Virus record (IMG/VR): IMGVR_UViG_3300034051_000134
Coordinates: 1 to 52,944 of that record
DNA: 52,944 bases
Strand: one strand, 5' to 3'
Source: a virus
In this document: positions 18,089-42,442 of the stretch, in pieces
Layout of the letters: every line of letters starts with the position of its first letter
How positions within the stretch are numbered: the first letter of the stretch is position 1
Program-made: the position numbers and the translations under genes
Notes under the pieces: generated by a model
The model's database searches: none
What the model was told of the DNA's origin: nothing
Seen by the model: only the letters and a program-made list of their open reading frames with translations

Positions 18089-18103
18089 TATATATATCAC
18101 ACG
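18089..18103 (-). promoter_or_regulatory. Candidate late promoter (CGTGTGATATATATA)
   Basis: On the minus strand this site reads CGTGTGATATATATA and begins 45 nt upstream of the ATG at 18058. The same CG(A/T)GTGAT core occurs at similar distances before groEL and before the 31374 gene. No direct evidence of transcription is available. Confidence 0.4.
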
Positions 18104-18105
18104 TA

Positions 18106-18441
18106 TTATTTACTTTTTATGTTTTTTCCTTGTTTTGCATAAGCTTCTTTTTCCCAAGGTAAATTTTTAGCTCCTTCTTTCATTTTAGATCTAAGATATT
18201 TCTTTCCTTTCCAAGTAACTGTTTTATCGTCGTATGCTAGATCACCTCTCTTCATTTGATCGATATGAACTTTCTCGTGGGATATAGTTTTATTTTTCTT
18301 TAACTCTAAAGGAGATACATTCTTATTAATTAATATAGTACCGTTTGATTGTGCCATTCCTAAAACGTTATCGTCCATATCTGTACTGTATATAGGAGTA
18401 TTATCGATATTATAAGGTGGACCAGACATTTTAAAAGCCAT
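18106..18441 (-). CDS. HExxH zincin-like virion-region protein
   Basis: A 111 aa protein with His55-Glu56-Lys-Val-His59, a zinc-protease signature, followed by Gly-Asp-Leu-Ala-Tyr-Asp-Asp and then Pro-Trp-Glu-Lys-Glu-Ala-Tyr near residues 94-100, which could supply the third zinc-ligand Glu. The N-terminus (Phe-Lys-Met-Ser-Gly-Pro-Pro) resembles other small late proteins here. Compact proteins with this layout occur in marine phages, but their targets are unknown. Metal binding is predicted; proteolysis is inference. It could instead be an inactive structural domain. Confidence 0.55.
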   Translation of the reverse strand: MAFKMSGPPYNIDNTPIYSTDMDDNVLGMAQSNGTILINKNVSPLELKKNKTISHEKVHIDQMKRGDLAYDDKTVTWKGKKYLRSKMKEGAKNLPWEKEAYAKQGKNIKSK

Positions 18442-21730: not shown

Positions 21731-21743
21731 TATATATCACTCG
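21731..21743 (-). promoter_or_regulatory. Candidate late promoter upstream of groEL
   Basis: On the minus strand the site reads CGAGTGATATATA, starting 40 nt before the groEL ATG. It shares CG(A/T)GTGAT with the sites at 18089 and 31410. It lies in a 53-nt gap between groEL and the spanin gene, the only gap in this stretch large enough for a promoter. Confidence 0.45.
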
Positions 21744-21756
21744 TTTTTTGTAACTT

Positions 21757-22221
21757 TTACAATAAACCAATGAGTCTTCTTCTATTTCTCCATATTGTAT
21801 AAAGTATTAATAATAAAATCAATAACCACGAGATCCAAGCATAACTAGCTTTTTTATCAACTGTTTTAACTTTATCTTTCTTAAGTTCTTTAACTACTGT
21901 TTTAGACTGTTCTAAGCTTGTTTTAGACACTTTATTGTCTTCAGAGTATATAGTGTTGTCTTTTTTCTTTTTGATCTTAATACGCGCGTTAAAATACTTC
22001 TTTCCTTCAACTACAAATTCTTTTGTTGAATCAATTGCGGTTACTTCTATTTCGTGTGTTTCTACATCATATTTAATCTCTGTTTTAACAACTTCAATTA
22101 CTGAGTCTTTTTTCGTTACAACTTCTACTGTTGTTTTTTCTTCTACTTTTTCTTGTTTGTTTACTTTTCTTGCACCACAGGCAAAAAACAATGTAGATAA
22201 TAATATTAAAATATATTTCAT
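21757..22221 (-). CDS. Unimolecular spanin (u-spanin) candidate
   Basis: A 154 aa protein with both signatures of a u-spanin: an N-terminal lipoprotein signal (hydrophobic residues 3-13, lipobox Phe-Phe-Ala-Cys with Cys15) that would anchor it in the outer membrane, and a C-terminal transmembrane segment (about 127-144) followed by an Arg-rich end for the inner membrane. The middle is Lys/Val/Glu-rich and could span the periplasm. U-spanins such as T1 gp11 fuse the two membranes in the last step of lysis. It lies 4 bases downstream of the endolysin gene. Confidence 0.75.
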   Translation of the reverse strand: MKYILILLSTLFFACGARKVNKQEKVEEKTTVEVVTKKDSVIEVVKTEIKYDVETHEIEVTAIDSTKEFVVEGKKYFNARIKIKKKKDNTIYSEDNKVSKTSLEQSKTVVKELKKDKVKTVDKKASYAWISWLLILLLILYTIWRNRRRLIGLL

Positions 22222-31374: not shown

Positions 31375-31409
31375 AGCTAATTTTTAACGAGTAATATATA
31401 CTCTCTCTA

Positions 31410-31417
31410 ATCACACG
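31410..31417 (-). promoter_or_regulatory. Candidate late promoter at head of leftward arm
   Basis: The minus strand reads CGTGTGAT here, 43 nt before the ATG at 31374, followed by a TATATATTAC segment. The core and distance match the sites before groEL (21731) and the secreted protein gene (18089), although the sequence right after the core (TAGAGAG) differs. Confidence 0.4.
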
Positions 31418-31771
31418 AAAAAGTAAATATTTACATTAGCCACTATACTGGTTAAAAGTGCCTTAAAACAGCATAAATGGCCATTATAATGGTTATGTGT
31501 TATATTATAGACAATATGACTTGTTCTGTCCATAATATTATGCGTTGTAAAAAAAATATTAAAAAAAATTTTTTGGGCCTGGGTGAATTTGATGAGATGT
31601 AGAGAATTATTGTGTTACTACCTAATTTCTATTTTTATTTTCGAAAAGGAAAACGCTTTTCATTTTGCCGGGTCCCCCAACTTTTTAGCTTTTGGGTTGA
31701 TGATGTGAGTCATACGTGCGTGATGTCGTAATAGGATTTAGCTTTTACCTTATGCGTATGTATAGCACTCG

Positions 31772-31805
31772 CACGGAGTTACTACGATCTTAATAAGATG
31801 TTATG
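31772..31805 (+). promoter_or_regulatory. Decayed copy of early promoter motif
   Basis: CACGGAGTTA, then 15 nt, then GATGTTATG. The spacing is exactly that of the intact copies, but the second element has lost GATAATATA. It is preceded by TGTATAGCACT, as are copies at 32382 and 32774, and lies directly before the intact copy at 31808, which suggests a tandem duplication followed by decay. Confidence 0.45.
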
Positions 31806-31807
31806 TT

Positions 31808-31847
31808 CACGGACTTACAAGAATATGATGTTGATAATATATATGAA
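31808..31847 (+). promoter_or_regulatory. Early promoter motif, copy 1
   Basis: CACGGACTTA (31808-31817), a 15-nt spacer, then GATAATATATATGAA (31833-31847). It lies 37 nt before the ATG of the 88 aa gene. One of seven copies with identical spacing. Confidence 0.75.
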
Positions 31848-31883
31848 GATTAATTAAGATCTTTATAATTTAATTTAATAACT

Positions 31884-32150
31884 ATGTCAAAATCAACAGC
31901 AGCTGCAGCAGCAGCACCACAAGTAGCATTAACTACTAAAAGATTCGTAATCAGAAAATCGCTGATTGGAACTAATACAGTAATAACATTCATGAACAAT
32001 AAGAATGTTGAATGCATATACAATCATGATAAAGTATATGACCAATTAAAAGCTAAGTTTGATGCAATGCCATGCTTCGCTAAATACGGTAGTTATACTA
32101 ATACTAATAATCTGCCAGCATTCGTAAGAGCTTTAAAAGAAATAGTATAA
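31884..32150 (+). CDS. Small early protein, paralogue 1
   Basis: An 88 aa basic protein with an Ala-rich start (residues 5-15) and a conserved core from residue 18: Thr-Thr-Lys-Arg-Phe-Val-Ile-Arg-Lys-Ser-Leu-Ile-Gly, then Tyr-Asn-His-Asp, then Met-Pro-Cys-Phe and Lys-Tyr-Gly-Ser-Tyr-Thr-Asn. The same core is present in the gene at 32852, so the two are paralogues. It is the first gene of the rightward arm, under promoter copy 1. No known family was recognised; early position suggests host takeover. Confidence 0.65.
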   Translation: MSKSTAAAAAAPQVALTTKRFVIRKSLIGTNTVITFMNNKNVECIYNHDKVYDQLKAKFDAMPCFAKYGSYTNTNNLPAFVRALKEIV

Positions 32151-32160
32151 TGCATCGATC

Positions 32161-32190
32161 TAAGCAAATCGTTAAACTGCTTATTTTATT
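32161..32190 (+). terminator. Weak hairpin terminator
   Basis: TAAGCA pairs with TGCTTA around an 11-nt loop and is followed by TTTTATT, ten bases after the stop of the 88 aa gene. Short stem, so it may be leaky into the next small frame. Confidence 0.4.
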
Positions 32191-32212
32191 AATCTAACTA
32201 AATCATATAATC

Positions 32213-32314
32213 ATGAGACACATATCTAATACAATCAATCAGATCAAACCGCTAATAGTACTTGCATTATACATCGGAGTATACTTCGCGTTACAATTCA
32301 TGATGTCAGTGTAA
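32213..32314 (+). CDS. Short membrane peptide
   Basis: A 33 aa frame from ATG 32213 to TAA 32314. Residues 13-31 are hydrophobic and could span the membrane (Pro-Leu-Ile-Val-Leu-Ala-Leu-Tyr-Ile-Gly-Val-Tyr-Phe). It sits between a weak and a strong terminator in the early region. It has no paralogue here; coding status is uncertain because of its size. Confidence 0.4.
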   Translation: MRHISNTINQIKPLIVLALYIGVYFALQFMMSV

Positions 32315-32335
32315 CATATCATAACAACTAAACAA

Positions 32336-32359
32336 GGCCACTATATGTGGTCTTTTTTT
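32336..32359 (+). terminator. Rho-independent terminator
   Basis: GGCCAC and GTGGTC form a 6-bp stem (one G-T) with a 5-nt loop, followed by seven T. It closes the first early cassette before promoter copy 2. Confidence 0.8.
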
Positions 32360-32381
32360 AGCATTAATGTGTATAGCACTC

Positions 32382-32421
32382 CACGGACTTACAAGTTTTC
32401 TATTAGGATAATATATTTGAA
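32382..32421 (+). promoter_or_regulatory. Early promoter motif, copy 2
   Basis: CACGGACTTA (32382-32391), 15 nt, then GATAATATATTTGAA (32407-32421). The second element contains TATATTTG, which fits the Bacteroidota TAnnTTTG -7 consensus. It lies 16 nt before the ATG at 32437 and 22 nt after a terminator. Confidence 0.75.
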
Positions 32422-32436
32422 ATTAAATTATATCTT

Positions 32437-32661
32437 ATGAAATTACTTAAAGCAGTCAGCAAAGAATCTGGCACAGTGTACACAGAATACACAGATGGCA
32501 CAAATACATTTATCTATGAAGATGATGTGTTAGTGAGAGTTATAACAGCATCATTTGATGCTACAATATCTAACTCTGATAACAGTTTAGTTGAATTTAC
32601 AGCACCAGATGCAACACTAGAGTTCTTAGGATCTGTAGTAGATAAGTATTATGACATATAA
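32437..32661 (+). CDS. Small acidic early protein
   Basis: A 74 aa acidic protein with a beta-like N-terminus (Thr-Val-Tyr-Thr-Glu-Tyr-Thr-Asp-Gly-Thr) and an Asp/Glu-rich remainder ending Asp-Lys-Tyr-Tyr-Asp. It has its own promoter motif and its own terminator, so it is a single-gene cassette. Such small acidic early proteins often bind host proteins, but no family was recognised. Confidence 0.6.
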   Translation: MKLLKAVSKESGTVYTEYTDGTNTFIYEDDVLVRVITASFDATISNSDNSLVEFTAPDATLEFLGSVVDKYYDI

Positions 32662-32671
32662 CTAAATAAAG

Positions 32672-32691
32672 CCCTAGAAATAGGGTTTTTT
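32672..32691 (+). terminator. Rho-independent terminator
   Basis: CCCTA-GAAA-TAGGG with six T following, 10 bases after the stop of the 74 aa gene. The GNRA-type tetraloop makes it strong. Confidence 0.8.
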
Positions 32692-32773
32692 ACTCTACCT
32701 ATTGGTGGAATGGGCAGGCAGAGCCGACTTTAGTTGCTAAAGCTAGTTTTAAGGTCCATTATGTATAGCACTT

Positions 32774-32813
32774 CACGGACTTACGACATTTTATTATTGA
32801 TAATATATACGAA
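32774..32813 (+). promoter_or_regulatory. Early promoter motif, copy 3
   Basis: CACGGACTTA (32774-32783), 15 nt, then GATAATATATACGAA (32799-32813). It is preceded by TGTATAGCACTT like copy 2 and lies 39 nt before the ATG at 32852. Confidence 0.75.
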
Positions 32814-32851
32814 GATTGATTTTAATCTTTATAATTTTAATATTTTATACT

Positions 32852-33145
32852 ATGTCAACAAAAAAATCAAGTGCAGTTGTAGCGCCAGTGGCAGCTCCTG
32901 CAGTAGTATCAACTACAAATCAATTAACTACAAAAAGATTTGTTATTCGCAAGTCATTAATTGGAAGTAATACTGTTATAAGTTTTACTAATCATAAGAA
33001 CGAGTTGAAAGTTTACAACCACGACTTAGTTTATAACGCTTTGCGAGCAAAATTTGACTTAATGCCTTGCTTCGACAAGTATGGAAGTTATACTAACTCG
33101 AAAGATTTACCAGTCTTCGTAAGAAATTTACCAACATTGGTATAA
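32852..33145 (+). CDS. Small early protein, paralogue 2
   Basis: A 97 aa paralogue of the 31884 gene: an Ala/Val/Pro-rich N-terminus of about 20 residues, then the shared core Leu-Thr-Thr-Lys-Arg-Phe-Val-Ile-Arg-Lys-Ser and a conserved Met-Pro-Cys-Phe-Asp-Lys-Tyr-Gly-Ser-Tyr end. I chose ATG 32852 because it lies at the same place relative to the motif and aligns with the start of paralogue 1; upstream in-frame codons are A/T-rich leader. It is bracketed by promoter copy 3 and a strong terminator. Confidence 0.65.
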   Translation: MSTKKSSAVVAPVAAPAVVSTTNQLTTKRFVIRKSLIGSNTVISFTNHKNELKVYNHDLVYNALRAKFDLMPCFDKYGSYTNSKDLPVFVRNLPTLV

Positions 33146-33155
33146 TTATTAAATA

Positions 33156-33181
33156 AGGCCACTTCGGTGGTCTTTTTTTTT
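33156..33181 (+). terminator. Strong rho-independent terminator
   Basis: GGCCAC-TTCG-GTGGTC followed by about ten T. The stem is the same as in the 32336 terminator, with a stable TTCG tetraloop, supporting duplication of the whole cassette. Confidence 0.85.
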
Positions 33182-33214
33182 ATCTTTTTGAAGCAATAGT
33201 AAGCACTACAAAAG

Positions 33215-33260
33215 TGTGACAATAGCCTGTTACTATATAATATAAGACCCTAATGTCACA
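33215..33260. repeat. 46-bp dyad element, copy 1
   Basis: TGTGACAATAG at the left end is mirrored by CTAATGTCACA at the right, with 24 bases between. A second copy of identical length and ends lies at 40831-40876. The half-site reads TGTGACAWTAG. The shape suggests a dimeric protein binding site or operator. Confidence 0.7.
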
Positions 33261-33323
33261 GTTTTTAAATTAACGACTTTGTTGTGCCATTATTTCCTGT
33301 TTAGTAGCTTTTGCTATACACTT

Positions 33324-33363
33324 CACGGACTTATTTTGTTTCACTTCAGATAATATATATGAA
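33324..33363 (+). promoter_or_regulatory. Early promoter motif, copy 4
   Basis: CACGGACTTA (33324-33333), 15 nt, then GATAATATATATGAA (33349-33363). No gene starts within 200 bases; the next ATG used is at 33569 beyond promoter copy 5. A transcript from here would begin with a ~125-nt structured non-coding segment. Confidence 0.7.
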
Positions 33364-33491
33364 ATTAAACGTTCATACTACCAATATTGTGGTTAAAAGT
33401 GCATAGAGATGATGAGAGATGTAGTAATATACCTCTCAACTGTTTTGTTCTAATAAACATTTTCACACCTTAGAACTAACTAGATTATCTA

Positions 33492-33531
33492 TACGGACTT
33501 AATAATATTATAGTGTGATAATATATTCGAA
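33492..33531 (+). promoter_or_regulatory. Early promoter motif, copy 5
   Basis: TACGGACTTA (33492-33501), 15 nt, then GATAATATATTCGAA (33517-33531), 38 nt before the ATG at 33569. It would drive the run of small genes that follows to about 35.1 kb. Confidence 0.75.
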
Positions 33532-33568
33532 ATTAAATTATAACATTAATCTTTAATACCTATTTACT

Positions 33569-33775
33569 ATGTCAACAACAGTTCAAACTTACAAAAGACG
33601 AGGTTCAACTATATGGTTGAATAAAAGAGAATACCGTGGTTTTTTAATTGGTAATCTACCACAAAGATTTGCCTTCATTTATAACGAAGATAAAGAGCAA
33701 GAAGGTATAACCTCATGGTTTAACCACAAAGGTTGGACTTTCATACTAGAAGATGATTTAAAAACTGGTTGGTAA
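33569..33775 (+). CDS. Small basic early protein
   Basis: A 68 aa protein with alternating strands (Ser-Thr-Ile-Trp-Leu-Asn-Lys-Arg, then Phe-Ala-Phe-Ile-Tyr) and a Trp-rich end (Ser-Trp-Phe-Asn-His-Lys-Gly-Trp-Thr-Phe, last residues Thr-Gly-Trp). It follows promoter copy 5 and is spaced one base from the next gene. Function unknown. Confidence 0.6.
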   Translation: MSTTVQTYKRRGSTIWLNKREYRGFLIGNLPQRFAFIYNEDKEQEGITSWFNHKGWTFILEDDLKTGW

Positions 33776-33776
33776 T

Positions 33777-33956
33777 ATGAGTCAACAAGTTAATGATGCT
33801 ATCGATGGTTTCAAGGCTTTCATCAAATGTGGTGGAAGCAGAGACCAGGTAGTCAGAGAAATATCAGAGTATATTTACACTCAATGTACTTGGAAAACAA
33901 ACTATGATAGAAGTGTTATATTAGAAGAATTAATTAATATAGTGTACAATGACTAA
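33777..33956 (+). CDS. Small early protein of unknown function
   Basis: A 59 aa frame (ATG 33777 to TAA 33956), helical, with Cys in Phe-Ile-Lys-Cys-Gly-Gly and Gln-Cys-Thr-Trp. It starts one base after the previous stop and overlaps the next start by 8 bases, so it is embedded in a tight operon, which supports it being real. Confidence 0.55.
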   Translation: MSQQVNDAIDGFKAFIKCGGSRDQVVREISEYIYTQCTWKTNYDRSVILEELINIVYND

Positions 33957-34110
33957 ACAGTATTTAATAACATTAGCAATAAACTTTTGTCTGTTTCATA
34001 ATAAGATATATGAGTCAGATGTAATAGAGATAATGGAATACCTAGACTCTTTTACAATAGAAGAAATATTAAGAGATTACAATGAAATAGTAGAAGAAAT
34101 AACCCTTTAA
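33949..34110 (+). CDS. Small early protein of unknown function
   Basis: A 53 aa frame (ATG 33949 to TAA 34110), acidic and helical in its second half (Ile-Glu-Glu-Ile-Leu-Arg-Asp-Tyr). It overlaps the preceding gene by 8 bases (AATGACTAA type). Function unknown. Confidence 0.5.
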   Translation: MTKQYLITLAINFCLFHNKIYESDVIEIMEYLDSFTIEEILRDYNEIVEEITL

Positions 34111-34121
34111 ACAATTAAATT

Positions 34122-34220
34122 ATGAAGAAGCAAGCAAACATTATTAGTGTATTATTATTCAAGTTCAAAGTAGTATTTAAAGACTTAGCTAACGCAGCAG
34201 CGTGGGTGCAAAGAACATAA
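34122..34220 (+). CDS. Very small basic peptide
   Basis: A 32 aa frame (ATG 34122 to TAA 34220) with an amphipathic hydrophobic/basic pattern (Ser-Val-Leu-Leu-Phe-Lys-Phe-Lys-Val-Val). It fits between neighbours with 11 and 2 bases to spare. Possibly membrane-associated; coding status is not certain. Confidence 0.4.
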   Translation: MKKQANIISVLLFKFKVVFKDLANAAAWVQRT

Positions 34221-34222
34221 CT

Positions 34223-34390
34223 ATGTATTTAAGTATATTAGATTACCGTGATGGCAAGGTATTAATACATAAGATACCAGATGGTTTAGATATTGAAGAA
34301 TATGTAGAAGATTATATTACAGATAACTTTGATATGAGACACGTAGAATATATGACCACTAGTGAATTGAACTTAGAAATAAATAATTAA
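34223..34390 (+). CDS. Small acidic early protein
   Basis: A 55 aa frame. I chose ATG 34223 over an upstream GTG at 34202 because the ATG starts two bases after the previous stop and the upstream part would overlap that gene. The protein is acidic (Ile-Glu-Glu-Tyr-Val-Glu-Asp-Tyr-Ile) with no recognisable domain. Confidence 0.5.
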   Translation: MYLSILDYRDGKVLIHKIPDGLDIEEYVEDYITDNFDMRHVEYMTTSELNLEINN

Positions 34391-34392
34391 AT

Positions 34393-34617
34393 ATGGAAGC
34401 AGCAGCAATAGTAGCTATGCAGTATTGTAATAATATTCGTAGACAAAGAATAGATCAACATCTAGTTAATAACGCTAACGAGAAAAAGTGTAGCGGTTTA
34501 ACAAACAGAGAATACAACAGTACAATAATTAGGCAGAAGTCTACATTCAGTAAAAGCAAGAAATTCTCTTGTACTAGATTGTGGAATCATAGACACGTAA
34601 GACGTGGCGAAGAATAA
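34393..34617 (+). CDS. Small basic early protein
   Basis: A 74 aa Arg/Lys/Asn-rich protein with three scattered Cys and an Arg-His-Val-Arg-Arg-Gly end. The charge suggests nucleic-acid binding. It starts two bases after the previous stop. No domain was recognised. Confidence 0.5.
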   Translation: MEAAAIVAMQYCNNIRRQRIDQHLVNNANEKKCSGLTNREYNSTIIRQKSTFSKSKKFSCTRLWNHRHVRRGEE

Positions 34618-34648
34618 ATTTGTATCATTAACTTTAAATTATATTATC

Positions 34649-35146
34649 ATGGGAATTAGAATTAGTCAAGTGCCAAATGAGCACAAAGAAAAAGTAGTAT
34701 TAAACATGCTAAAACAAAGAGGTCCATTAGATACTCTTAGATGCGTTGAAGAAGATCTTTCGCTAGCAATGGCTTTTAGTTGGCGTGAAGCACCTGAAGG
34801 CCAAAGGTTTTGGGACGATATAGACGAGAACAGGAATTCGGCAGAAGACGATGCTAAATTAGCGGAGTTCGTTGCGGAAGCTGAAAGACGTGGGTTTGCT
34901 ATTGGCGTCAATACTAAACATGGTCTTATACTAGATAAGAACCCACATACTTCAGAATATCAAGAGCATGAGTTATTAAGTTTTGAAGGTGAATATCATT
35001 TCTTTTATCATAACATCAAGGTGTTTAAAAATGGTAAATGGATTAAACCTCTTAAGTCAAAACAAACTGCTAATGATGACATGCCAGAAATGGCTGCTAT
35101 ACACGCTTTGTTTAGCGATTTAATGAGAGATTTAAGAAGAAATTAG
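34649..35146 (+). CDS. Early protein of unknown function
   Basis: A 165 aa protein. ATG 34649 was preferred over an upstream start at 34604, which would overlap the previous gene and add an unlikely leader. The N-terminal part is helical (residues 8-45), the centre acidic (Asp-Glu-Asn-Arg-Asn-Ser-Ala-Glu-Asp-Asp) and the end basic. Tyr/Phe/His-rich Tyr-His-Phe-Phe-Tyr-His lies near residue 123. No family was recognised. Confidence 0.55.
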   Translation: MGIRISQVPNEHKEKVVLNMLKQRGPLDTLRCVEEDLSLAMAFSWREAPEGQRFWDDIDENRNSAEDDAKLAEFVAEAERRGFAIGVNTKHGLILDKNPHTSEYQEHELLSFEGEYHFFYHNIKVFKNGKWIKPLKSKQTANDDMPEMAAIHALFSDLMRDLRRN

Positions 35147-35189
35147 TAATGTAACCAAGTGTTTTGCTTGGTAAAGCCTCTTACTAAGG

Positions 35190-35255
35190 AGTCAGGTAGC
35201 TGAATGGAAGCGCCACGCTGATAAAGTGGATAAGGTTCGAGTCCTCGCCTGACTA
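35190..35255 (+). tRNA. Short tRNA-like gene, probable Ile (GAT)
   Basis: A 66-nt fold with acceptor AGTCAGG/CCTGACT (7 perfect pairs), a short D-arm (GCT/AGC), anticodon arm CCACG/AGTGG (one mismatch at the loop end) with loop CTGATAA, giving anticodon GAT, and a T-arm around TTCGAGT with three of five good pairs. The variable region is almost absent, so it is about seven nt shorter than normal. No CCA is encoded. Confidence 0.6.
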
Positions 35256-35276
35256 CTAACTTTAAAATATATAGAT

Positions 35277-35426
35277 ATGAGTATAATGGCAAGTTTAGAT
35301 TCCTTATCTAAAGAGTATTTCGAAGTAAATTATGATTCTTTAACTATGTACCAACAGCAAGTGATAATTGAATTATATAGATTAGAAGAATTCCCTAAAT
35401 GCCTTACGGACTTATTAATAAAATAG
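35277..35426 (+). CDS. Small early protein of unknown function
   Basis: A 49 aa frame (ATG 35277 to TAG 35426), helical, with Gln-Gln-Gln near residue 27. Its last codons overlap promoter copy 6 (TACGGACTTA encodes part of Leu-Thr-Asp-Leu). Function unknown. Confidence 0.45.
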   Translation: MSIMASLDSLSKEYFEVNYDSLTMYQQQVIIELYRLEEFPKCLTDLLIK

Positions 35427-35444
35427 TGAGATAATATATTTGAA
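35405..35444 (+). promoter_or_regulatory. Early promoter motif, copy 6
   Basis: TACGGACTTA (35405-35414), 15 nt, then GATAATATATTTGAA (35430-35444), containing TATATTTG. It lies 17 nt before ATG 35461 and overlaps the 3' end of the preceding 49 aa frame. Confidence 0.75.
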
Positions 35445-35460
35445 TTTAAAAACAAACATT

Positions 35461-35649
35461 ATGTACTGTAGATGTGGAAGTCAAATGCATCCTGTTAGGA
35501 TAGAGTTAGGTTATAAGACATGTGTAAACTGTTCAACTATGAAAACATATAGTTATATACCTATTATAGAACATAAAACAGGTAATACAATTCAGATTGT
35601 AAGTCAAGAATTAAGTGCGGCGGTTCACAAGTCGTGGCGTAGAAAGTAA
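35461..35649 (+). CDS. Small zinc-ribbon-like protein
   Basis: A 62 aa basic protein with Cys3-Arg-Cys5 and Cys-Val-Asn-Cys near residues 24-27, the arrangement of a small zinc ribbon. ATG 35461 was chosen because an upstream in-frame start at 35440 lies inside the promoter motif. It may bind DNA or RNA polymerase; no specific family was recognised. Confidence 0.55.
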   Translation: MYCRCGSQMHPVRIELGYKTCVNCSTMKTYSYIPIIEHKTGNTIQIVSQELSAAVHKSWRRK

Positions 35650-35667
35650 CATTTAAAACAAATAGAT

Positions 35668-35940
35668 ATGAGTAGATTATTAAGTAGAGAAGTATTAAAG
35701 TATATTGGAGTTGTTGTAAACGACTATCAATTTGACAAGAACAATGAAGGATATTTAGGTTTTATAAACATAGAACCTATTGACAGCGGTGAAAATACGT
35801 TTGCTTCATTGGAATTAGTAAAAAATTACAAAGACTATGAACCATTGTTACAGTCATTAGGTATGGAATTTGAAAGTGTACCTACAAAAGATGAAATGAT
35901 AATAATATGTAAACTAAATAATACACAATATGTAAACTAA
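35668..35940 (+). CDS. Small early protein of unknown function
   Basis: A 90 aa protein with mixed alpha/beta character: Tyr-Leu-Gly-Phe-Ile-Asn-Ile-Glu-Pro near residue 28, then Met-Ile-Ile-Ile-Cys-Lys-Leu near the end. It lies in the operon under promoter copy 6. No domain was recognised. Confidence 0.5.
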   Translation: MSRLLSREVLKYIGVVVNDYQFDKNNEGYLGFINIEPIDSGENTFASLELVKNYKDYEPLLQSLGMEFESVPTKDEMIIICKLNNTQYVN

Positions 35941-35952
35941 ATAATAAATATT

Positions 35953-36063
35953 ATGGAAGAATATAGTGATTGTTGTGGTGCTGGTAGACACTACATATTT
36001 GATGAATTATGTGCTGACTGTTTAGAACATTGTGATTTTGAAACAGAACCAGACGAGTCTTAG
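35953..36063 (+). CDS. Very small Cys-rich protein
   Basis: A 36 aa frame (ATG 35953 to TAG 36063) with Cys7-Cys8, Cys22-x2-Cys25 and Cys29, plus an acidic tail. The Cys spacing could bind one zinc ion. It follows two other small genes under promoter copy 6. Its small size leaves some doubt. Confidence 0.45.
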   Translation: MEEYSDCCGAGRHYIFDELCADCLEHCDFETEPDES

Positions 36064-36095
36064 CGACTTGCTATACACACTTTGACATAGTGCGG

Positions 36096-36162
36096 CGGAT
36101 AAATATGGTTATGACGTTATTGACAACGGAGTTACGTCGATGGTTCGATTCCATCTTATCCT
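36096..36162 (+). tRNA. tRNA-like element (uncertain)
   Basis: GGATAA at the 5' end pairs with TTATCC at the 3' end, and a perfect T-arm GATGG-TTCGATT-CCATC sits just before it. The 36 nt between are too short for a normal D-arm plus anticodon arm plus variable loop, and no clean anticodon stem was found (CGTT/AACG around ATTGAC is the best). It may be a degenerate tRNA or a tRNA-like processing signal. Confidence 0.35.
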
Positions 36163-36212
36163 CAAAGTTACCGTATTGGTAATTATTATTTAACCCTTTA
36201 AACCCTTTAATT

Positions 36213-37250
36213 ATGGCGACAGCTAGAAAAACAAAAGCAGTAGTAGAAGAAGTACAAGGCGTAGGCGCTGACTTCGTATTCATGGACAAATCACTTAGTA
36301 TCTTAGACATTGGTCTTAAGACTGGTAAAAACATCGTACTCTATGGTCCAGGTGGTCACGGTAAATCAGAACTTACATTAGCATATCTTGCTGAAAAAGG
36401 TATTGACCCTTATGTTATTACAATGGGTACAGGTATGACTACGGATAGATTATTCGGTGGTCTTGATATACCTACATTCGAAAAAACAGGTAAAATCGAG
36501 TACTTAGTTGAAAACTCTTTTATGAATAACGAGTATGTTATATTCGAAGAATTATTCGATGCTCCTGATTTTATATTAGAACAATTAAAAGATATTTTAT
36601 CTTCTAAAGTGTTCAGAAATGGTACGCAGATTTTCCCTATCAAAACAAAGTTCATCATCTGTTGTACTAATCGTACTCGTGAAGAATTCTCTAAAAACGC
36701 ATCGTTAAAAGCTTTAATGGAACGTTTTCCACTTGAGTTAAATGTTATATGGGATAATTATACTGAAGCTAGTTACAATAAATTATTGGAAACAAAGTTC
36801 GGCGAAGGTAATATAGATCCTATTATTCCATTCTTATTACAAGAGTATCACCGTGGTGGTATTACAATATCACCTCGTGTTGCTGTAACTGCTTATACAG
36901 TTTATCAAGAATGTGGTCCAGACTCATTAAGTTTTATCGCAGAGTTTGCTAAAAAACCTACGTTAATCTCTGATACGCTTAAAAAATACCAAAGCACATT
37001 AAAATTCAGAAAATTATCTAACGATCTTGATGTTACTATCAATGAGTTACAAAGTAATAACATGATTACTACTGATGAAAAAGCTAAATTTACTAGCGAT
37101 CTTGGTTTACTTGCTACAGGTATTAAAGAAATGAAAAAATTAACTGTAACAGACGATCTTATTTCGACTCACGCTTCATTAATCAAAACAGCTACAGAAT
37201 TGTATACAAGTTTGTCTAAGAAACAAACTGTATCTTCAATAATGGAATAA
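36213..37250 (+). CDS. MoxR-family AAA+ ATPase
   Basis: A 345 aa AAA+ ATPase with Walker A Gly45-Pro-Gly-Gly-His-Gly-Lys-Ser52, Walker B Val-Ile-Phe-Glu-Glu (109-113), a sensor-like Cys-Cys-Thr-Asn-Arg-Thr near 148-153 and Met-Glu-Arg-Phe-Pro-Leu-Glu (arginine-finger region) after it. The pattern is that of MoxR/CobS-type ATPases, which act with a von Willebrand factor A partner to remodel or insert metal into target proteins. The VWA partner is encoded 20 bases downstream. An N-terminal Lys-rich tail precedes the domain. Confidence 0.8.
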   Translation: MATARKTKAVVEEVQGVGADFVFMDKSLSILDIGLKTGKNIVLYGPGGHGKSELTLAYLAEKGIDPYVITMGTGMTTDRLFGGLDIPTFEKTGKIEYLVENSFMNNEYVIFEELFDAPDFILEQLKDILSSKVFRNGTQIFPIKTKFIICCTNRTREEFSKNASLKALMERFPLELNVIWDNYTEASYNKLLETKFGEGNIDPIIPFLLQEYHRGGITISPRVAVTAYTVYQECGPDSLSFIAEFAKKPTLISDTLKKYQSTLKFRKLSNDLDVTINELQSNNMITTDEKAKFTSDLGLLATGIKEMKKLTVTDDLISTHASLIKTATELYTSLSKKQTVSSIME

Positions 37251-37270
37251 TTAACCTTAAATAACAAGAC

Positions 37271-38707
37271 ATGAGTAAATATTGGAGTAAATATTATGGT
37301 CGTAACGATGGTTATGACGATGATTATGGTTATGATGATTATGGTTATGGTTATGGTGGTTCTAAATCTTATACTAAAAATGTTTGGCAACCAAGTATAT
37401 GGTCTAATTATTCTTGGAATGGTGCTAGTGTTGTAGATGATAATTCTAATTTATCTATAAAAGATCCTATTACGTATATAACACCTACAAAAGCAGACAT
37501 CAAAGCTAAGACTCATGTATGGGCTGAAAAGTCTTTAGATACAATTAAAGAGTTAGCTAGAGTTTGTTATTTCAAGATGATTGATGAGCGTGATTATTTT
37601 CAAGAAAAATATTCAGACACAAGTAAATTATCTGAAAGCGAAGTTGCAGACTATGAAAAGAAAAAACAATTGTATGATTCTTTGTTTGATACTTTTATTC
37701 CAGGTAATACTCCACTAGAACAAGCTATTGCCATCTACAAAAAAATAGGTGGCAACAGCGAGATTGGTGATCGTGGCGAAGAACAAGATGTTGATTTTGA
37801 AACTAGCTTAAACTTCGATAGAAAAATATATTCTGATGCAGACATTAACGACCAACTTGACTTCAATGAATTAAGTAAAGAGCGTAAAATGGATATATTA
37901 GATAAAATATCTATCGTTGGTAATCTTGGTGATCAGTTCAAAGTAGAAAAAGAAGTTGAAGAAAAAATTGTATCTAACTCTGACCAATACGCTAAAAAGA
38001 TTATGCGTGACTATGCTCAGTTCAGCAATATAGAGTTATATCAAAAAATGTTTCCAAACTTTCGTACTAAGTTCTTAACTAAAGACTTAACAGTCAACGT
38101 ACCTGTAGATAAAAAAGAACAAAAACAAAAGATAATTATATTATTAGATTTTTCTGGTAGTATGGGTTATCCTGAAAAACAGATATGGGTGAATGCTATA
38201 CTCATTGACCGTTTAAAATACGTTATGAAAGAAGAAGCTGAAGTTTTCTTTAGTTACTTTATACATAACCCAAGTAAATTACAGTTTCATCATCTTAAAA
38301 ACAGAGAAGATGTAATGAACTTCTGGACATGGTTTTCTAACGACCCTAATGGTGGTACGACTGATATTGGTGGTATTGTAACTAGTATTGCTAATGACAT
38401 CGAACAACAACGTTTAGGTAATCTAGATATAGATTTATCACAGGAAAAACCAGAAATATTAATTATAAATGATGGTCAAGACGAAGTTGGCTATGATACT
38501 TTACCCTATAAAGTAAACGCAATATCATTAATGGAATTCAGTGACGAGTTAAAAACACTATGTATTAAAACTGGTGGTAAACAAGTTAGAGTTGATCGTG
38601 ACTGTTCTGTTACTGCTTATGCAGAAGAAGGTACTACTATCATTGATGATGGTAAAAAAGCTCAAATGGCTGAAAAAGCACAAAATGCTGTTTCTAATGC
38701 TTTTTAA
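37271..38707 (+). CDS. VWA-domain partner of the MoxR ATPase
   Basis: A 478 aa protein. Residues 10-32 are a Gly/Tyr/Asp-rich low-complexity stretch. Residues 70-260 are helical and charged. The VWA domain (about 285-450) has the MIDAS motif Asp293-Phe-Ser295-Gly-Ser297 and Gly-Gly-Thr-Thr-Asp near 364, so metal binding is expected. Partnering with the upstream MoxR ATPase follows the RavA-ViaA and CobS-CobT pattern. Followed by a strong terminator. The client is unknown; virion or host protein remodelling are both possible. Confidence 0.8.
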   Translation: MSKYWSKYYGRNDGYDDDYGYDDYGYGYGGSKSYTKNVWQPSIWSNYSWNGASVVDDNSNLSIKDPITYITPTKADIKAKTHVWAEKSLDTIKELARVCYFKMIDERDYFQEKYSDTSKLSESEVADYEKKKQLYDSLFDTFIPGNTPLEQAIAIYKKIGGNSEIGDRGEEQDVDFETSLNFDRKIYSDADINDQLDFNELSKERKMDILDKISIVGNLGDQFKVEKEVEEKIVSNSDQYAKKIMRDYAQFSNIELYQKMFPNFRTKFLTKDLTVNVPVDKKEQKQKIIILLDFSGSMGYPEKQIWVNAILIDRLKYVMKEEAEVFFSYFIHNPSKLQFHHLKNREDVMNFWTWFSNDPNGGTTDIGGIVTSIANDIEQQRLGNLDIDLSQEKPEILIINDGQDEVGYDTLPYKVNAISLMEFSDELKTLCIKTGGKQVRVDRDCSVTAYAEEGTTIIDDGKKAQMAEKAQNAVSNAF

Positions 38708-38716
38708 CAATTTAAA

Positions 38717-38749
38717 GGGCCCACTGTGAAAGGTGGGTCTTTTTATTTT
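38717..38749 (+). terminator. Rho-independent terminator after the MoxR-VWA operon
   Basis: GGCCCAC and GTGGGTC (one G-T pair) form a 7-bp stem with an 8-nt loop, followed by TTTTTATTTTA, ten bases after the VWA stop. Confidence 0.8.
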
Positions 38750-38790
38750 ATACTTTACTATTAACCATTAATACTCAAATGATTTATATT

Positions 38791-39009
38791 ATGAAAGAAG
38801 ATTATATAAAAATGAGAAATAAAAAAATAGTAGATACTAATTTCTTTTATCAATATGCTTTATTAAAAGGATTTAAAGGTACATTTGCTGAATTTAACGC
38901 TGGCGCCATACACTTAATGGTTGACCATGCTTTTGATCATTTAGATCGAGAATTCGAACTTACTACATTACATGACAAACAAGGTAATTTCATTAAAATA
39001 GTAGAGTAA
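38791..39009 (+). CDS. Small early protein of unknown function
   Basis: A 72 aa basic/helical protein; Phe-Phe-Tyr-Gln-Tyr-Ala-Leu-Leu-Lys-Gly-Phe and His-Ala-Phe-Asp-His-Leu-Asp segments are visible. ATG 38791 is chosen over 38779 because the leader before it is A/T-rich without coding bias; both are possible. No domain was recognised. Confidence 0.5.
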   Translation: MKEDYIKMRNKKIVDTNFFYQYALLKGFKGTFAEFNAGAIHLMVDHAFDHLDREFELTTLHDKQGNFIKIVE

Positions 39010-39047
39010 CACTTTGCTATACACACTAAAACTTAAAACAAAAAATC

Positions 39048-39350
39048 ATGGCAAAATTAACAGAAAAAACAGCAGACGGAACTAGTTTCCATAATTCTAC
39101 TATATACGCTACAGTAGATGAATTAAATGAAGTATTAGGTCAAGCACAATGGCAATATAATGATGGTAGTGACAAAGTAAACTTCGAATGGACATGTGAA
39201 ACAGACAATGGTGATGTTTTTACAATTTATGACTGGAAAGAATATAGAACTATTGAAACAGATGAAGAAATTGAATGGCACATTGGTGGTTGTAGTTCTG
39301 CTATAACATTTGAAGCAGCTAGAGAAGTAGAACTTTTATTAACTCAGTAA
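39048..39350 (+). CDS. Small acidic early protein
   Basis: A 100 aa acidic protein with Phe-Glu-Trp-Thr-Cys-Glu-Thr-Asp and Ile-Tyr-Asp-Trp-Lys-Glu-Tyr segments, alternating strands and one C-terminal helix. Acidic small beta proteins of this size in early phage regions can mimic DNA, but this is not shown. It starts 38 bases after the previous stop and is one base from the next gene. Confidence 0.55.
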   Translation: MAKLTEKTADGTSFHNSTIYATVDELNEVLGQAQWQYNDGSDKVNFEWTCETDNGDVFTIYDWKEYRTIETDEEIEWHIGGCSSAITFEAAREVELLLTQ

Positions 39351-39351
39351 T

Positions 39352-39567
39352 ATGAATATTATAGAATTAAAAGAAAGAACTAGTGACAAAGCTTTTTCTA
39401 AACTATCTTCACTTAGATTTGAATTAGTGTCTTTAGAAAGAGATTATTATATGGGTTTAACAGGTGGAGTAACGCTAAATGAATTAGAAGGCGTTATTAA
39501 TCATGTTAAAAAAGAAATAGATATATGGAATTATATAGCTGCTTTAATAGAAAAAGATAACACCTAA
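39352..39567 (+). CDS. Small helical protein
   Basis: A 71 aa protein with two predicted helices rich in Leu, Glu and Lys (about 3-30 and 45-68) and a Gly-Leu-Thr-Gly-Gly-Val-Thr turn. It begins one base after the previous stop. Unknown function. Confidence 0.5.
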   Translation: MNIIELKERTSDKAFSKLSSLRFELVSLERDYYMGLTGGVTLNELEGVINHVKKEIDIWNYIAALIEKDNT

Positions 39568-39577
39568 AACAGTTATT

Positions 39578-39868
39578 ATGGAAGATAAAGATATATTAGG
39601 AAAAGAATTTATTTGTTGTAGATTTGATAGTACAGATAGGTTAAAATTCCATGGTGCTTATGAAGATATTATTGGTTGTACAAGTACTGTATTAGACTTT
39701 CATAGTACATATAAGGAATATGCTCAAGTAGAAATAACTTTAAAAAACGGCAAAAAAGACACAAGACATTTTCCTACCGAAGTTATCAAACAGCAGATTC
39801 AAGAAAGAGAAAGTAGACCAATAGAATATTATTTTGATGAAGTAAGAAAAATATTAGCTATGTTATGA
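39578..39868 (+). CDS. Small early protein of unknown function
   Basis: A 96 aa protein with Phe-Ile-Cys-Cys-Arg-Phe-Asp near residue 10 and a C-terminal helix. The centre alternates hydrophobic and polar residues as in a small barrel (Thr-Ser-Thr-Val-Leu-Asp-Phe, Ala-Gln-Val-Glu-Ile-Thr-Leu). Its stop overlaps the next start (ATGA). Confidence 0.5.
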   Translation: MEDKDILGKEFICCRFDSTDRLKFHGAYEDIIGCTSTVLDFHSTYKEYAQVEITLKNGKKDTRHFPTEVIKQQIQERESRPIEYYFDEVRKILAML

Positions 39869-40014
39869 GTAAATTAATATACATGCACCAGACAGCAGAA
39901 CTATTATCTAAAGAAGAGTTTGATCGCTTGTTATCAATAGGTCAAATAAAATTAGATATAAACGAAGTTCCTTATTTATTAATCGAAGATAAAACAGAAG
40001 AAGAAAATGAGTAA
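39865..40014 (+). CDS. Small acidic peptide
   Basis: A 49 aa frame (ATG 39865 to TAA 40014) that overlaps the upstream stop by 4 bases and the downstream start by 8 bases, strong packing evidence. Acidic C-terminus (Lys-Thr-Glu-Glu-Glu-Asn-Glu). Unknown. Confidence 0.5.
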   Translation: MSKLIYMHQTAELLSKEEFDRLLSIGQIKLDINEVPYLLIEDKTEEENE

Positions 40015-40270
40015 AATAAAAACAGAATTAATTGCACCAGAGTTCTTTGAAGGAGAAATATACACTGAAGGAAAAGAAGTTACAAACTTTTTTTCAGGTG
40101 AATCAGTGTTTCTAGATCCAATTAGTCTAAGTATATACGACTTTATAAAAGGTTGTGAAGAATTTTCTAATTCAGGAATATTAAGTAAAGGCATAATACG
40201 TGACTTTGACATGTCTATTGACTGGTTCATTAAAAATAACCCTGAAGCATATATGATTTTATTAGATTAA
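40007..40270 (+). CDS. Small acidic early protein
   Basis: An 87 aa acidic protein with an aromatic-rich centre (Phe-Phe-Ser-Gly-Glu, Asp-Phe-Ile) and a helical end. It overlaps the previous gene by 8 bases. Function unknown. Confidence 0.5.
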   Translation: MSKIKTELIAPEFFEGEIYTEGKEVTNFFSGESVFLDPISLSIYDFIKGCEEFSNSGILSKGIIRDFDMSIDWFIKNNPEAYMILLD

Positions 40271-40273
40271 TTT

Positions 40274-40375
40274 ATGATAAAAAATGTATTAAACTTAATA
40301 AAACTAGTAATATTTTATGTTACTATCATTGTTATCTTCTTAGTATTGAAGATGAAAGAAATAGGTAGAATATAA
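40274..40375 (+). CDS. Short membrane peptide
   Basis: A 33 aa frame (ATG 40274 to TAA 40375) with a hydrophobic stretch from about residue 8 to 25 (Leu-Ile-Lys-Leu-Val-Ile-Phe-Tyr-Val-Thr-Ile-Ile-Val-Ile-Phe) and a basic tail. One transmembrane span is likely. It starts three bases after the previous stop. Confidence 0.45.
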   Translation: MIKNVLNLIKLVIFYVTIIVIFLVLKMKEIGRI

Positions 40376-40381
40376 AAACTA

Positions 40382-40421
40382 CACGGACTTAATAGAAAAG
40401 TTTGTAGATAATATCGTAACA
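40382..40421 (+). promoter_or_regulatory. Early promoter motif, copy 7 (weaker second element)
   Basis: CACGGACTTA (40382-40391), 15 nt, then GATAATATCGTAACA (40407-40421). The second element keeps GATAATAT but loses the ATnYGAA end. It lies 16 nt before ATG 40437 and heads the operon that includes the HTH regulator and the sigma factor. Confidence 0.65.
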
Positions 40422-40835: not shown

Positions 40836-40876
40836 CAATAGGCTGTATATATAACTAGTAAGGGGCTAATGTCACA
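40831..40876. repeat. 46-bp dyad element, copy 2 (candidate operator)
   Basis: TGTGACAATAG on the left and CTAATGTCACA on the right, 46 bp overall, same length and ends as the copy at 33215. The right half contains the ATG (40869) of the HTH gene, so a protein bound here would block that gene's ribosome access region or transcription start. Confidence 0.75.
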
Positions 40877-41486
40877 CGATAGAAAAATAAAGTATTTAAC
40901 AGATAGGCGTATAATATATAGACGAGCACCTATTAATGACCAACCATCAGCGAGGTTTGATTGGGGTGATTATTATGAAAATGGTACTAGTGAATATTAC
41001 GAGTTGTTTAGAAGCAAAGCTAAGATAAATACTTATAAAAGTCTAAAGTGGCATATATTAGTTATATGGTATCTTAATCCTCAATTAGATCAAGATAAAT
41101 TAGAAAATTTATTTAGATTTATATGTGATAAGTCAAATAACTTTGTTACCTTTAATGTTTCAGAGCACATATTAAAAACAATACTTCATGATGTTAGCAT
41201 GCATGATTTAGAACGGCCACCGAAAAACAAAGTACGTAAGATAATTTTTAAAGACACATGTCAATTAACGGCGGAACAAAAACTACAAATCGTAGGTCAA
41301 ATTATTGGTCGTAAAAAACTTTCAGAGTCCGAGATTTATGATGCTATGCTATACACTCATGATGAAGGCAATAAAATAACGGTTGACAAATTAGCTAGTT
41401 ACTTAAATTGCTCTACAAGAACTATATACAGAAACATGAGTAATGAACTTAAAAAAGAAAAAGAATTATTAAATCAAAATATTTAA
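40869..41486 (+). CDS. HTH-containing putative regulator
   Basis: A 205 aa basic protein whose C-terminal part (about 170-197) is a helix-turn-helix: Val-Asp-Lys-Leu-Ala-Ser-Tyr-Leu-Asn-Cys-Ser-Thr-Arg-Thr-Ile-Tyr-Arg. The N-terminal 60 residues are Arg/Tyr-rich and the centre helical. Its start codon lies within the 46-bp dyad, suggesting autoregulation. It is upstream of the sigma factor in the operon under promoter copy 7. It could also be a replication initiator; no family was recognised. Confidence 0.6.
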   Translation: MSHDRKIKYLTDRRIIYRRAPINDQPSARFDWGDYYENGTSEYYELFRSKAKINTYKSLKWHILVIWYLNPQLDQDKLENLFRFICDKSNNFVTFNVSEHILKTILHDVSMHDLERPPKNKVRKIIFKDTCQLTAEQKLQIVGQIIGRKKLSESEIYDAMLYTHDEGNKITVDKLASYLNCSTRTIYRNMSNELKKEKELLNQNI

Positions 41487-41497
41487 AACTAAACAAC

Positions 41498-41614
41498 ATG
41501 GAAGAAGCTATTAAATTTAACGAATGGATGAAAAACATGCGTAATCTATATTACTCAGACAATGAACAAATGAATAAAGCATTCTTAAAAATAACAGGAT
41601 ATGAAAAAGTATAA
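41498..41614 (+). CDS. Very small protein
   Basis: A 38 aa frame (ATG 41498 to TAA 41614), helical, with Trp-Met-Lys-Asn-Met-Arg near residue 10. It overlaps the sigma-factor start by 14 bases, which could couple their translation. Function unknown. Confidence 0.45.
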   Translation: MEEAIKFNEWMKNMRNLYYSDNEQMNKAFLKITGYEKV

Positions 41615-42383
41615 CTTACAAAACCATCTAATATATAAAAACGATGTAAAAAAGACTATTGGTAGATTAGAACAAAAGCAATACAACGAGTATTCAAGAG
41701 ACGATCTGATAAACATGTTTCTTCCGTTAGTAGAAAATATAGCTAAAAAGTTTTCAACTGCAGACCAAGCTTCTGGTATTTTAGATATAAACGACTTAAT
41801 ACAAGAAGGTAGTATAGGATTAATAATGTCAGTAGATAAAATAGACTGGGACAAAATAAACACATCTGAGAACCAAGAACAGACAATCAAATCATTTCTA
41901 TCTAAACGTATTAAAGGACGCATTAGATATGCGATAAATGTATATAGAGGGACAATGAGAATCCCTGAATATAAAATAAATGAAATACGTAAAAATCCTG
42001 AAGACAAACAGATACTTGAAATGTTTTTTAATAGTATATTTAAAAGTATAGATATCGGTTTTAACGATGCTGACTCTTCAGACTTCTATCCTAATTCAGA
42101 AAAAGGTATGTATCAATATGAAGACAAATCAACTGAATATAATATAGATCTACTAAATGCTTATTTACTTAGTATATTTAAGAAACATTTAACAGATGTT
42201 GAAGCAAACGTATTAAGACTTAGTTATGGTTTAGACTGTGATAAGCATTCAGCAAATGCAATTGCAGAAATTTTAGACTTCAAAGGTCCAAGTGCTTATG
42301 TAAGGGTTTCAGAATTAAAAAAGTTTGCTATTTCAAAATTAATAGCTAACGTCGATGCTTCACAAGTAATTGACTTCATGTAA
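41601..42383 (+). CDS. Sigma-70-family RNA polymerase sigma factor
   Basis: A 260 aa protein with recognisable region 2 (about 35-120): Leu-Pro-Leu-Val-Glu-Asn-Ile-Ala-Lys-Lys-Phe-Ser, Asp-Leu-Ile-Gln-Glu-Gly-Ser-Ile-Gly-Leu and Arg-Ile-Lys-Gly-Arg-Ile-Arg. Region 4 (about 195-250) has Leu-Thr-Asp-Val-Glu-Ala-Asn-Val-Leu-Arg-Leu and a helix-turn-helix ending Ala-Tyr-Val-Arg-Val-Ser-Glu-Leu-Lys-Lys. Region 3 is replaced by an acidic linker. It would redirect host RNA polymerase. It lies before the replication genes, so a middle or late switch is plausible; candidate target sites are the motifs listed here. Confidence 0.8.
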   Translation: MKKYNLQNHLIYKNDVKKTIGRLEQKQYNEYSRDDLINMFLPLVENIAKKFSTADQASGILDINDLIQEGSIGLIMSVDKIDWDKINTSENQEQTIKSFLSKRIKGRIRYAINVYRGTMRIPEYKINEIRKNPEDKQILEMFFNSIFKSIDIGFNDADSSDFYPNSEKGMYQYEDKSTEYNIDLLNAYLLSIFKKHLTDVEANVLRLSYGLDCDKHSANAIAEILDFKGPSAYVRVSELKKFAISKLIANVDASQVIDFM

Positions 42384-42442
42384 GTTATGTCAAAAATGTG
42401 TGATTATATATATAACAACTTAAACTAATTAAATCAAATATA

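Follow-up and report, generated by a model that had tools for sequence, protein, structure and literature searches.

A repeated bipartite motif as a putative early promoter class in a family of sigma-encoding uncultured tailed phages

Evaluating the virus record IMGVR_UViG_3300034051_000134 over positions 1 to 52,944 (52,944 nucleotides, hereafter the window), we found exactly seven copies of a bipartite motif, CGGACTTA-N15-GATAATAT, every one on the plus strand and always with a 15-nt spacer. In our interpretation, a large and uncultured family of tailed phages, whose hosts are most likely Bacteroidota, uses this motif as its early promoter class. The best explanation as a whole, to which we give a probability of roughly 0.58, is that this early class would be used first and that a phage-encoded sigma factor would then serve a second promoter class.

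Seven motif copies and their geometry

The seven copies lie where the initial annotation had placed them (from 31808, 32382, 32774, 33324, 33492, 35405 and 40382), and its strand and spacer were likewise right for the core. Its longer string, YACGGACTTA-N15-GATAATATATNYGAA, fits 6 sites (0.00 expected by chance in 100 dinucleotide shuffles) but not the copy at 40382, which fails even with 3 mismatches allowed; there GATAATAT is followed by CGTAACAATTAAA, that is, without the ATNYGAA tail that the remaining six copies possess. Allowing up to 3 mismatches, the short pattern gave 8 matches against 0.71 expected from dinucleotide shuffles, the eighth being the probable decayed tandem copy at 31774 (Table 1), and the window holds no further exact CGGACTTA on either strand. 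The window is contained at 100% identity over its whole length in a record of 68,048 bp with 127-bp end repeats (G001), where the identical core occurs nowhere beyond the seven copies and a search with up to 2 mismatches returns 7 matches. Across both strands of this record, a weight matrix trained on 69 distinct sites of the window's clade (13 contigs, the window's own seven among them, with likely chance hits in G005 at 32768 and G013 at 27250 excluded) gave scores of 36-66 bits to exactly seven sites and of at most 8 bits to everything else. The two-strand motif search in this genome and its relatives that had been proposed as a check recovers the seven sites and a family-wide occurrence that shuffled sequence does not reproduce.

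The six start codons reported 16-39 nt downstream of copies are present, with the last four bases of each distance hinging on the end point assigned to the motif. The remaining copy, at 33324, had been described as lying before no start codon and is indeed an orphan: close relatives G021 and G022 possess the same promoter, identical across the aligned block, before an 85-aa open reading frame (ORF), and this copy has no gene because that ORF is missing from the window, where the next promoter has moved close to it.

Relative to a +1 position inferred from the sequence, CGGACT falls at -35 to -30 and GATAAT at -12 to -7 with 17 bp between them, such that the 69 clade sites show a sigma-70-type bipartite layout (two elements about 17 bp apart, a -10 at -12 to -7 and a purine at the inferred start), with a pyrimidine at -1 and a G at +1, each in 0.90 of them. 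Among sigma-encoding loci, 34 sites have an ATG at precisely 12 nt from the G of GATAAT, whilst no site has one at 11 or 13 nt. Of 62 leaders, 20 have a perfect hairpin of at least 6 bp starting at the inferred +1, with arms that differ yet stay complementary (in the window, the leaders of the first copy and at 32811 carry a hairpin). Because of the fixed spacing and strand, the nearness to gene starts, this pyrimidine/purine step, the ATG spacing and the leader hairpins, we read the motif as a promoter, and we infer sigma-70-type geometry with a start at the step 6 nt below GATAAT.

Several observations speak against so precise a start. The histogram of ATG distances has further peaks at 10 nt (17 sites) and 14 nt (13 sites), and an ATG at distance 10 would precede the inferred +1. 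Hairpins also start at -1 (12) and one base inside (18), with nested stems counted repeatedly; of the non-extendable stems, 8 start at +1 and 6 at -1. Within the window, five of the seven leaders are hairpin-free (0.0 kcal/mol over 30 nt), and the copy at 40382 lacks the pyrimidine/purine step.

Two side observations concern the surroundings of the copies. At window 31884-32150 and 32852-33145, and in relatives, lie genes for a family of paralogous small early proteins (TKRFVIRKSLIG...), every one of them behind an early-class promoter of its own. The sequence TGTATAGCACT or its near inverse TGCTATACAC stands directly 5' of several copies (near 32370, 32765, 33315 and elsewhere) and also occurs near 36070, 39015 and 41347.

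Distribution across the family and the host promoter code

Genes of all loci were called with a simple ATG-ORF picker, many loci are related so that their counts are not independent, and composition-only shuffles served the TAnnTTTG, Shine-Dalgarno, early-class upstream-region, GTAAA/GTRAT-pair and sigma-stop-element counts below. The exact core pattern was found in 34 stretches belonging to 26 virus contigs, 20 of which were retrieved (G026 without its last 1,195 bases). Nineteen of the 26 carry at least 2 copies (up to 2 mismatches), and the seven single-copy contigs may be chance hits. Relatives of the window's sigma factor, at 51-100% identity, are encoded by 11 of the 26, all of them among the 19 multi-copy contigs, and in the other 8 multi-copy contigs no more than 2.6 kb follows the last copy in the direction in which sigma would be expected. 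Building on a sigma profile search (the best 80 of 455 encoding stretches in the virus collection, plus 8 loci in genome bins), we counted GATA[AC]TAT with upstream room 546 times on the sigma strand versus 56 times on the other strand (86 loci), and a loose filter, whose acceptance score demands bases common to both early forms described below, accepted 556 early-class sites over 97 loci (four contigs included twice), with at least 3 sites in 72 loci. In 74 loci, 183 of 680 sigma-strand upstream regions contain the early class, versus 1.9 in shuffled sequence. The initial annotation's suggestion of a promoter class of its own is the best reading of a motif that stands before the first rightward genes and is common to a large phage family.

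The upstream half of this class comes in two forms. On a sigma tree of 71 rows, 60 of them different, 13 rows (10 contigs) carry CACGGACTTA without a second block, 51 carry TTACAAAnnnAATACGA and 7 are mixed, and the CGGACTTA form requires at least 3 gains or losses and is therefore not one clade. The GATAATAT element and the spacing are constant between forms, partly since the search demanded both. An identical sigma helix, AYVRVSELKK, occurs with either early element, namely with CGGACTTA in the window's clade and with the other form in two loci (L120 and L174). Because the part from -37 to -22 varies between phage clades and the -10 does not, this block would probably be bound by a separate factor. 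Middle promoters of phage T4 combine a conserved -10 with a MotA box at -30 that replaces the -35, and are read with sigma-70. Like them, the early class pairs a conserved -10 with another conserved block at a fixed distance instead of a -35, and it differs from them in that the genes behind it are likely the earliest ones.

A Bacteroidota host fits the near lack of Shine-Dalgarno sequences (1 of 77 genes versus 2.6 in shuffled sequence) and the A at -3 in 0.71, with Flavobacterium johnsoniae as the reference for both (PMC6847099), and terminase relatives point the same way. These relatives, at 32-65% identity, are Elemovirus, Pachyviridae (phages of Flavobacterium, Cellulophaga and Tenacibaculum) and MW202828. 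Elemovirus and MW202828 also share GroEL/GroES genes with the window phage, whose own GroEL (PF00118) lies at 20159-21703 and whose GroES-like protein lies at 15578-16186. Genome bins were not used for host assignment, as the 8 sigma-relative loci fall in six bins of mixed phyla, mostly on short contigs (Aliivibrio, Halieaceae, Gammaproteobacteria, Ilumatobacteraceae, Saprospiraceae and Flavobacteriaceae).

The TAnnTTTG element of the primary-sigma promoter in this likely host phylum is enriched upstream of genes in four sigma-lacking relatives from these groups (8/20, 9/18, 10/40 and 14/38 versus 0.8, 1.7, 3.0 and 3.5 in shuffled sequence), and neither phage promoter class occurs in the 116 upstream regions of these four genomes. 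Their genome-wide matches are scattered and single (GATAATAT 13 times in Elemovirus and 7 in MW202828; the second-class pattern 2 times in Elemovirus). As an aside, the sigma-lacking MW202828.1 (L201, L202) has a gene annotated as repressor as well as 14-15 copies of a palindrome, GTGTCGTTAACGACAC, of which 8 or more precede rightward genes.

Turning to the sigma-carrying phages, 74 loci gave, after removal of motif overlaps, TAnnTTTG in 18 of 680 sigma-strand upstream regions versus 18.95 shuffled and in 2 of 70 on the other strand versus 4.3. In 11 sigma-carrying contigs the plus strand shows 15 matches, 7 of which are the early motif itself and 8 scattered, and none of the upstream regions (0 of 169; 0 of 110) holds the two-box pattern TTTG-N17-23-TAnnTTTG. 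Two counts from these contigs weigh against a complete absence of the host element: TAnnTTTG lies slightly above the shuffled level overall (26 of 279 upstream regions versus 18.1) and more so on the minus strand (13 of 110 versus 6.6), where 8 of the 13 matches share one apparently coding stretch before the terminase gene. No host-type promoter for the HTH-sigma operon or for the first early gene stood out in the TAnnTTTG scan of the 11 contigs.

In F. johnsoniae, transcription starts 4-5 nt past the -7 box (PMC6847099). The early class shares just A-11 and T-7 of the six conserved bases of this box, counted from the inferred +1, and has no TTTG at -33. The proposal that the second element often contains the Bacteroidota -7 box is not supported: TAnnTTTG, as TATATTTG, is confined to 2 of 7 copies (32382 and 35405), the inferred start places GATAAT and not TATATTTG at -12 to -7, and the upstream regions of sigma-carrying relatives hold TAnnTTTG at close to background frequency. 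The accompanying remark that the first element does not resemble the TTTG -33 box was borne out, as all 7 copies carry CGGACTTA. Judged by sequence, the early class is not the Bacteroidota TAnnTTTG promoter.

A putative second promoter class and the sigma factor

Aligning the upstream regions of leftward orthologues yielded a second putative promoter class (GTAAA plus GTRAT at a fixed distance), GTAAA-N15-GTRATWATA, which lies directly behind the sigma gene and before the leftward structural-block genes. Leftward GTAAA/GTRAT pairs number 14 at 20 nt start to start versus 0.24 shuffled per spacing, and 38 in all loci versus at most 10 at any other spacing. On the sigma strand there are 40 pairs at 20 nt, with other spacings reaching up to 23; most of these 20-nt pairs arise because the sites cluster directly behind the sigma gene, with 31 of 45 distinct sigma-strand sites before ORFs sitting 756-814 nt from the sigma start. 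A GTRA[TC]WATA element lies within 130 nt past the sigma stop in 81 of 88 loci versus 2.4 shuffled, and GTAAA (up to 1 mismatch) stands at the fixed distance in 66 of those 81, though the search did not demand it. The distance from the sigma stop to the second-class -10 moves in steps of about 11 nt (19, 30-32, 41-43, 52-54), as if helical phase mattered. Since 11 of 76 cases have an ATG at 11 or 12 nt counted from the -12 base, the second-class geometry can equal that of the early class.

Window matches to the second class at minus 19526-19503 and minus 17811 were dropped as likely chance. A candidate late motif from 8-mer counts, ATATTATA, was set aside because 11 of its 20 sites represent one homologous gene start and the others are scattered.

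Sigma-70-family homology, as initially annotated for the gene at 41601, is confirmed for region 2 by a PF04542 match (26 bits versus a cut-off of 24), a match to phrog_351 and a structural match of the protein model to an RpoD (7xya_F) in its region 2, with Z 11.1 and rmsd 2.4 across 98 residues. The sigma probably also carries a region 4 helix-turn-helix (HTH), given a weak profile match to SigA region 4 (10.5 bits) and confidently predicted helices, with whole-chain fits at rmsd of about 20. The protein had no match in the phage collection at E 1e-3.

In 95 of 97 loci, some of them truncated where the contig ends, sigma is preceded by a gene for a protein with a C-terminal HTH (Table 1). Its model has a mean pLDDT of 89.7, structural matches barely cover the N-terminal part, and a family could not be assigned from its fold, as only short HTH matches were returned (Z at most 6.1). 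A 46-bp inverted repeat (TGTGACAATAG ... CTAATGTCACA) occurs twice in the window, at 33215-33260 and at 40831-40876, the latter across the HTH start codon; relatives possess it at the HTH gene, and similar arms lie upstream of the first leftward gene. The HTH protein may bind the repeat at its own start, a candidate operator.

Table 1. Coordinates of promoter-class sites and associated features in the window
Feature	Position	Strand	Remarks
Probable decayed tandem motif copy	31774..31804	+	3 mismatches in 16 specified bases; 36 bp upstream of first copy
Early-class promoter 1 (putative)	31810..31845	+	-35 element 31810-31817, -10 element 31833-31840, inferred +1 31845; before ORF 31884-32150
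Leader hairpin	31845..31864	+	starts at inferred +1 of promoter 1 (G001, same sequence)
Early-class promoter 2 (putative)	32384..32419	+	inferred +1 32419; before ORF 32437-32661
Early-class promoter 3 (putative)	32776..32811	+	inferred +1 32811; before ATG 32852, ORF to 33145
Early-class promoter 4 (putative), orphan	33326..33361	+	downstream 85-aa ORF of G021/G022 absent here
Early-class promoter 5 (putative)	33494..33529	+	inferred +1 33529; before ORF 33569-33775
Early-class promoter 6 (putative)	35407..35442	+	inferred +1 35442; before ATG 35461 (62-aa ORF)
Early-class promoter 7 (putative), without ATNYGAA tail	40384..40419	+	inferred +1 40419; before ORF 40437-40712, further on HTH and sigma genes
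205-aa protein, C-terminal HTH	40869..41486	+	HTH_11 24.0 bits, just below cut-off 25
260-aa sigma-70-family factor	41601..42383	+	region 2, probable region 4
Second-class promoter (putative), GTAAG-N15-GTGATTATA	42380..42408	+	overlaps sigma stop codon; before ERF/replication genes (ATG 42443)
Second-class promoter (putative), GTAAA-N15-GTGAT	31406..31434	-	before first gene of leftward block (ATG 31374)
Second-class promoter (putative), GTAAA-N15-GTGATATAT	21732..21760	-	before groEL (ATG 21703)
Second-class promoter (putative), -35 with one mismatch (ATAAA)	18092..18120	-	before ORF 17714-18058

Elsewhere in the window, a tRNA gene lies at 35190-35255 (Rfam RF00005, 42.5 bits; missed by ARAGORN), and a second tRNA-like stretch near 36095-36165 was reported by neither Rfam nor ARAGORN. 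Positions 36213-38707 encode a MoxR-type AAA ATPase (PF20030) followed by a 478-aa protein, which recalls MoxR-vWA pairs; among the compared loci this pair had matches solely from the window's own clade.

Readings of the two classes and their meaning

The early class stands before the small early genes and the operon with the HTH protein and sigma, and would fire first. In line with this order, of 463 early sites in fetched loci (flanks of 10 kb or less), 425 are located upstream of the sigma gene. The phage sigma would then bring host core RNA polymerase to the second class, which stands before the replication operon and the leftward structural-block genes. The least certain step is the reader of the early class, which would be host RNA polymerase guided by some specificity determinant other than the usual Bacteroidota -33/-7 code, be it a host one or an early phage one. 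That sigma would read the second class is suggested because of the position of the sites, the constancy of GTAAA across clades and the precedent of phage 7-11, whose sigma gp47 reads late promoters of the form GTAAtg-16-aCTA (PMC8948821), a pattern that resembles our second class. Phages 7-11 and phiEco32, of the phiEco32-like group, encode a sigma that has a promoter class of its own ahead of late genes (PMC8948821), as proposed here. In those phages the host sigma-70 holoenzyme serves the early promoters, whereas the early class here does not look host-like. A class of its own before late genes that is absent where sigma is lacking was found here too, as a computed association that includes four sigma-lacking genomes, and early genes served by host primary-sigma promoters were not found by the TAnnTTTG counts. 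The hosts of 7-11 and phiEco32 are enterobacteria, and the likeness concerns promoter pattern and regulon layout.

Some observations sit uneasily with this division of labour. The -10 cores are alike (GATAAT and RATWAT) and both classes have 17-bp spacing, which would fit one sigma reading both, the second-class R-12 and A-11 having been set by the search. Of the 463 early sites in fetched loci, 38 lie downstream of the sigma gene, and one locus (L175) carries an early-type promoter at the place occupied by the second class elsewhere. Neither class looks host-like, a difficulty for how the very first transcripts would arise.

The initial annotation had named the sigma factor at 41601 as a possible reader of the motif. 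Motif and sigma do occur together, and the wider form of this idea is that sigma reads both classes, the early element standing in for a -35 with the help of a phage activator, for which the HTH neighbour is a candidate, while some sigma enters with the virion or is produced at a low basal level. We consider this doubtful, even as the distribution of sigma among multi-copy contigs, the absence of both classes upstream of genes in the four sigma-lacking relatives and the shared RATWAT and spacer favour it. The sigma gene itself sits behind early-class copies, and the second class is the better candidate target. P230, in the turn of region 4.2, is the sole sigma column that two CGGACTTA lineages share and that is seldom seen in other lineages, but a third such lineage (G017) has V at this position, and nearly the same region 4.2 helix occurs in the sigmas of L126, L128 and L130, paired with the other early element. 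Covariation does not discriminate the reader because such columns number 2 in ERF, 3 in exonuclease and 4 in primase, the control proteins, and 1 each in sigma and the HTH protein (MoxR and vWA rows came solely from the window's clade). For the early class, then, we favour host polymerase with another specificity determinant over the phage sigma by about two to one.

A reader of the early class that enters together with the DNA, be it a polymerase or a specificity factor, as in N4 or crAss-like phages, is improbable, even if early promoters unlike those of the host are otherwise known from polymerase-injecting phages. A virion RNA polymerase was sought and not retained: the 3346-aa late protein has no Pfam or PHROG match at E 0.01, and DxDxD occurs in proteins above 1,500 aa in 8 of 11 contigs at varying, unaligned places and in none of G001, G005 and G009, both weak negatives. 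Least probable is a function other than promoter, such as an operator, a site for replication or packaging, or an RNA-level element that recurs across the early region. The conserved block does exceed the length of a usual -35/-10 pair, but window copies lie on the coding strand only and are tied to gene starts, the signals linked to +1 (pyrimidine/purine step, ATG spacing, leader hairpins) accompany them, and the sole gene-less copy, at 33324, has lost its gene. The early class followed by the phage sigma for the second class is the reading we retain.

Phage-coded sigma factors with their own promoters are known from enterobacterial phages, and an open-access literature search, with subscription journals and preprints outside its scope, found no description of these promoter classes for Bacteroidota phages. 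Taken further, and only tentatively, a widespread lineage may have dropped the host promoter code entirely, using its own bipartite promoter even for its earliest genes and switching the upstream half between two forms at least 3 times on the sigma tree, in which case a phage- or virion-supplied factor would have to start transcription before the phage sigma served the second class. With hundreds of natural sites and sigma-lacking relatives at hand, it becomes possible to test directly how phages initiate transcription in a phylum whose primary sigma is unusual, and a compact promoter/sigma pair for Bacteroidota could serve as a tool.

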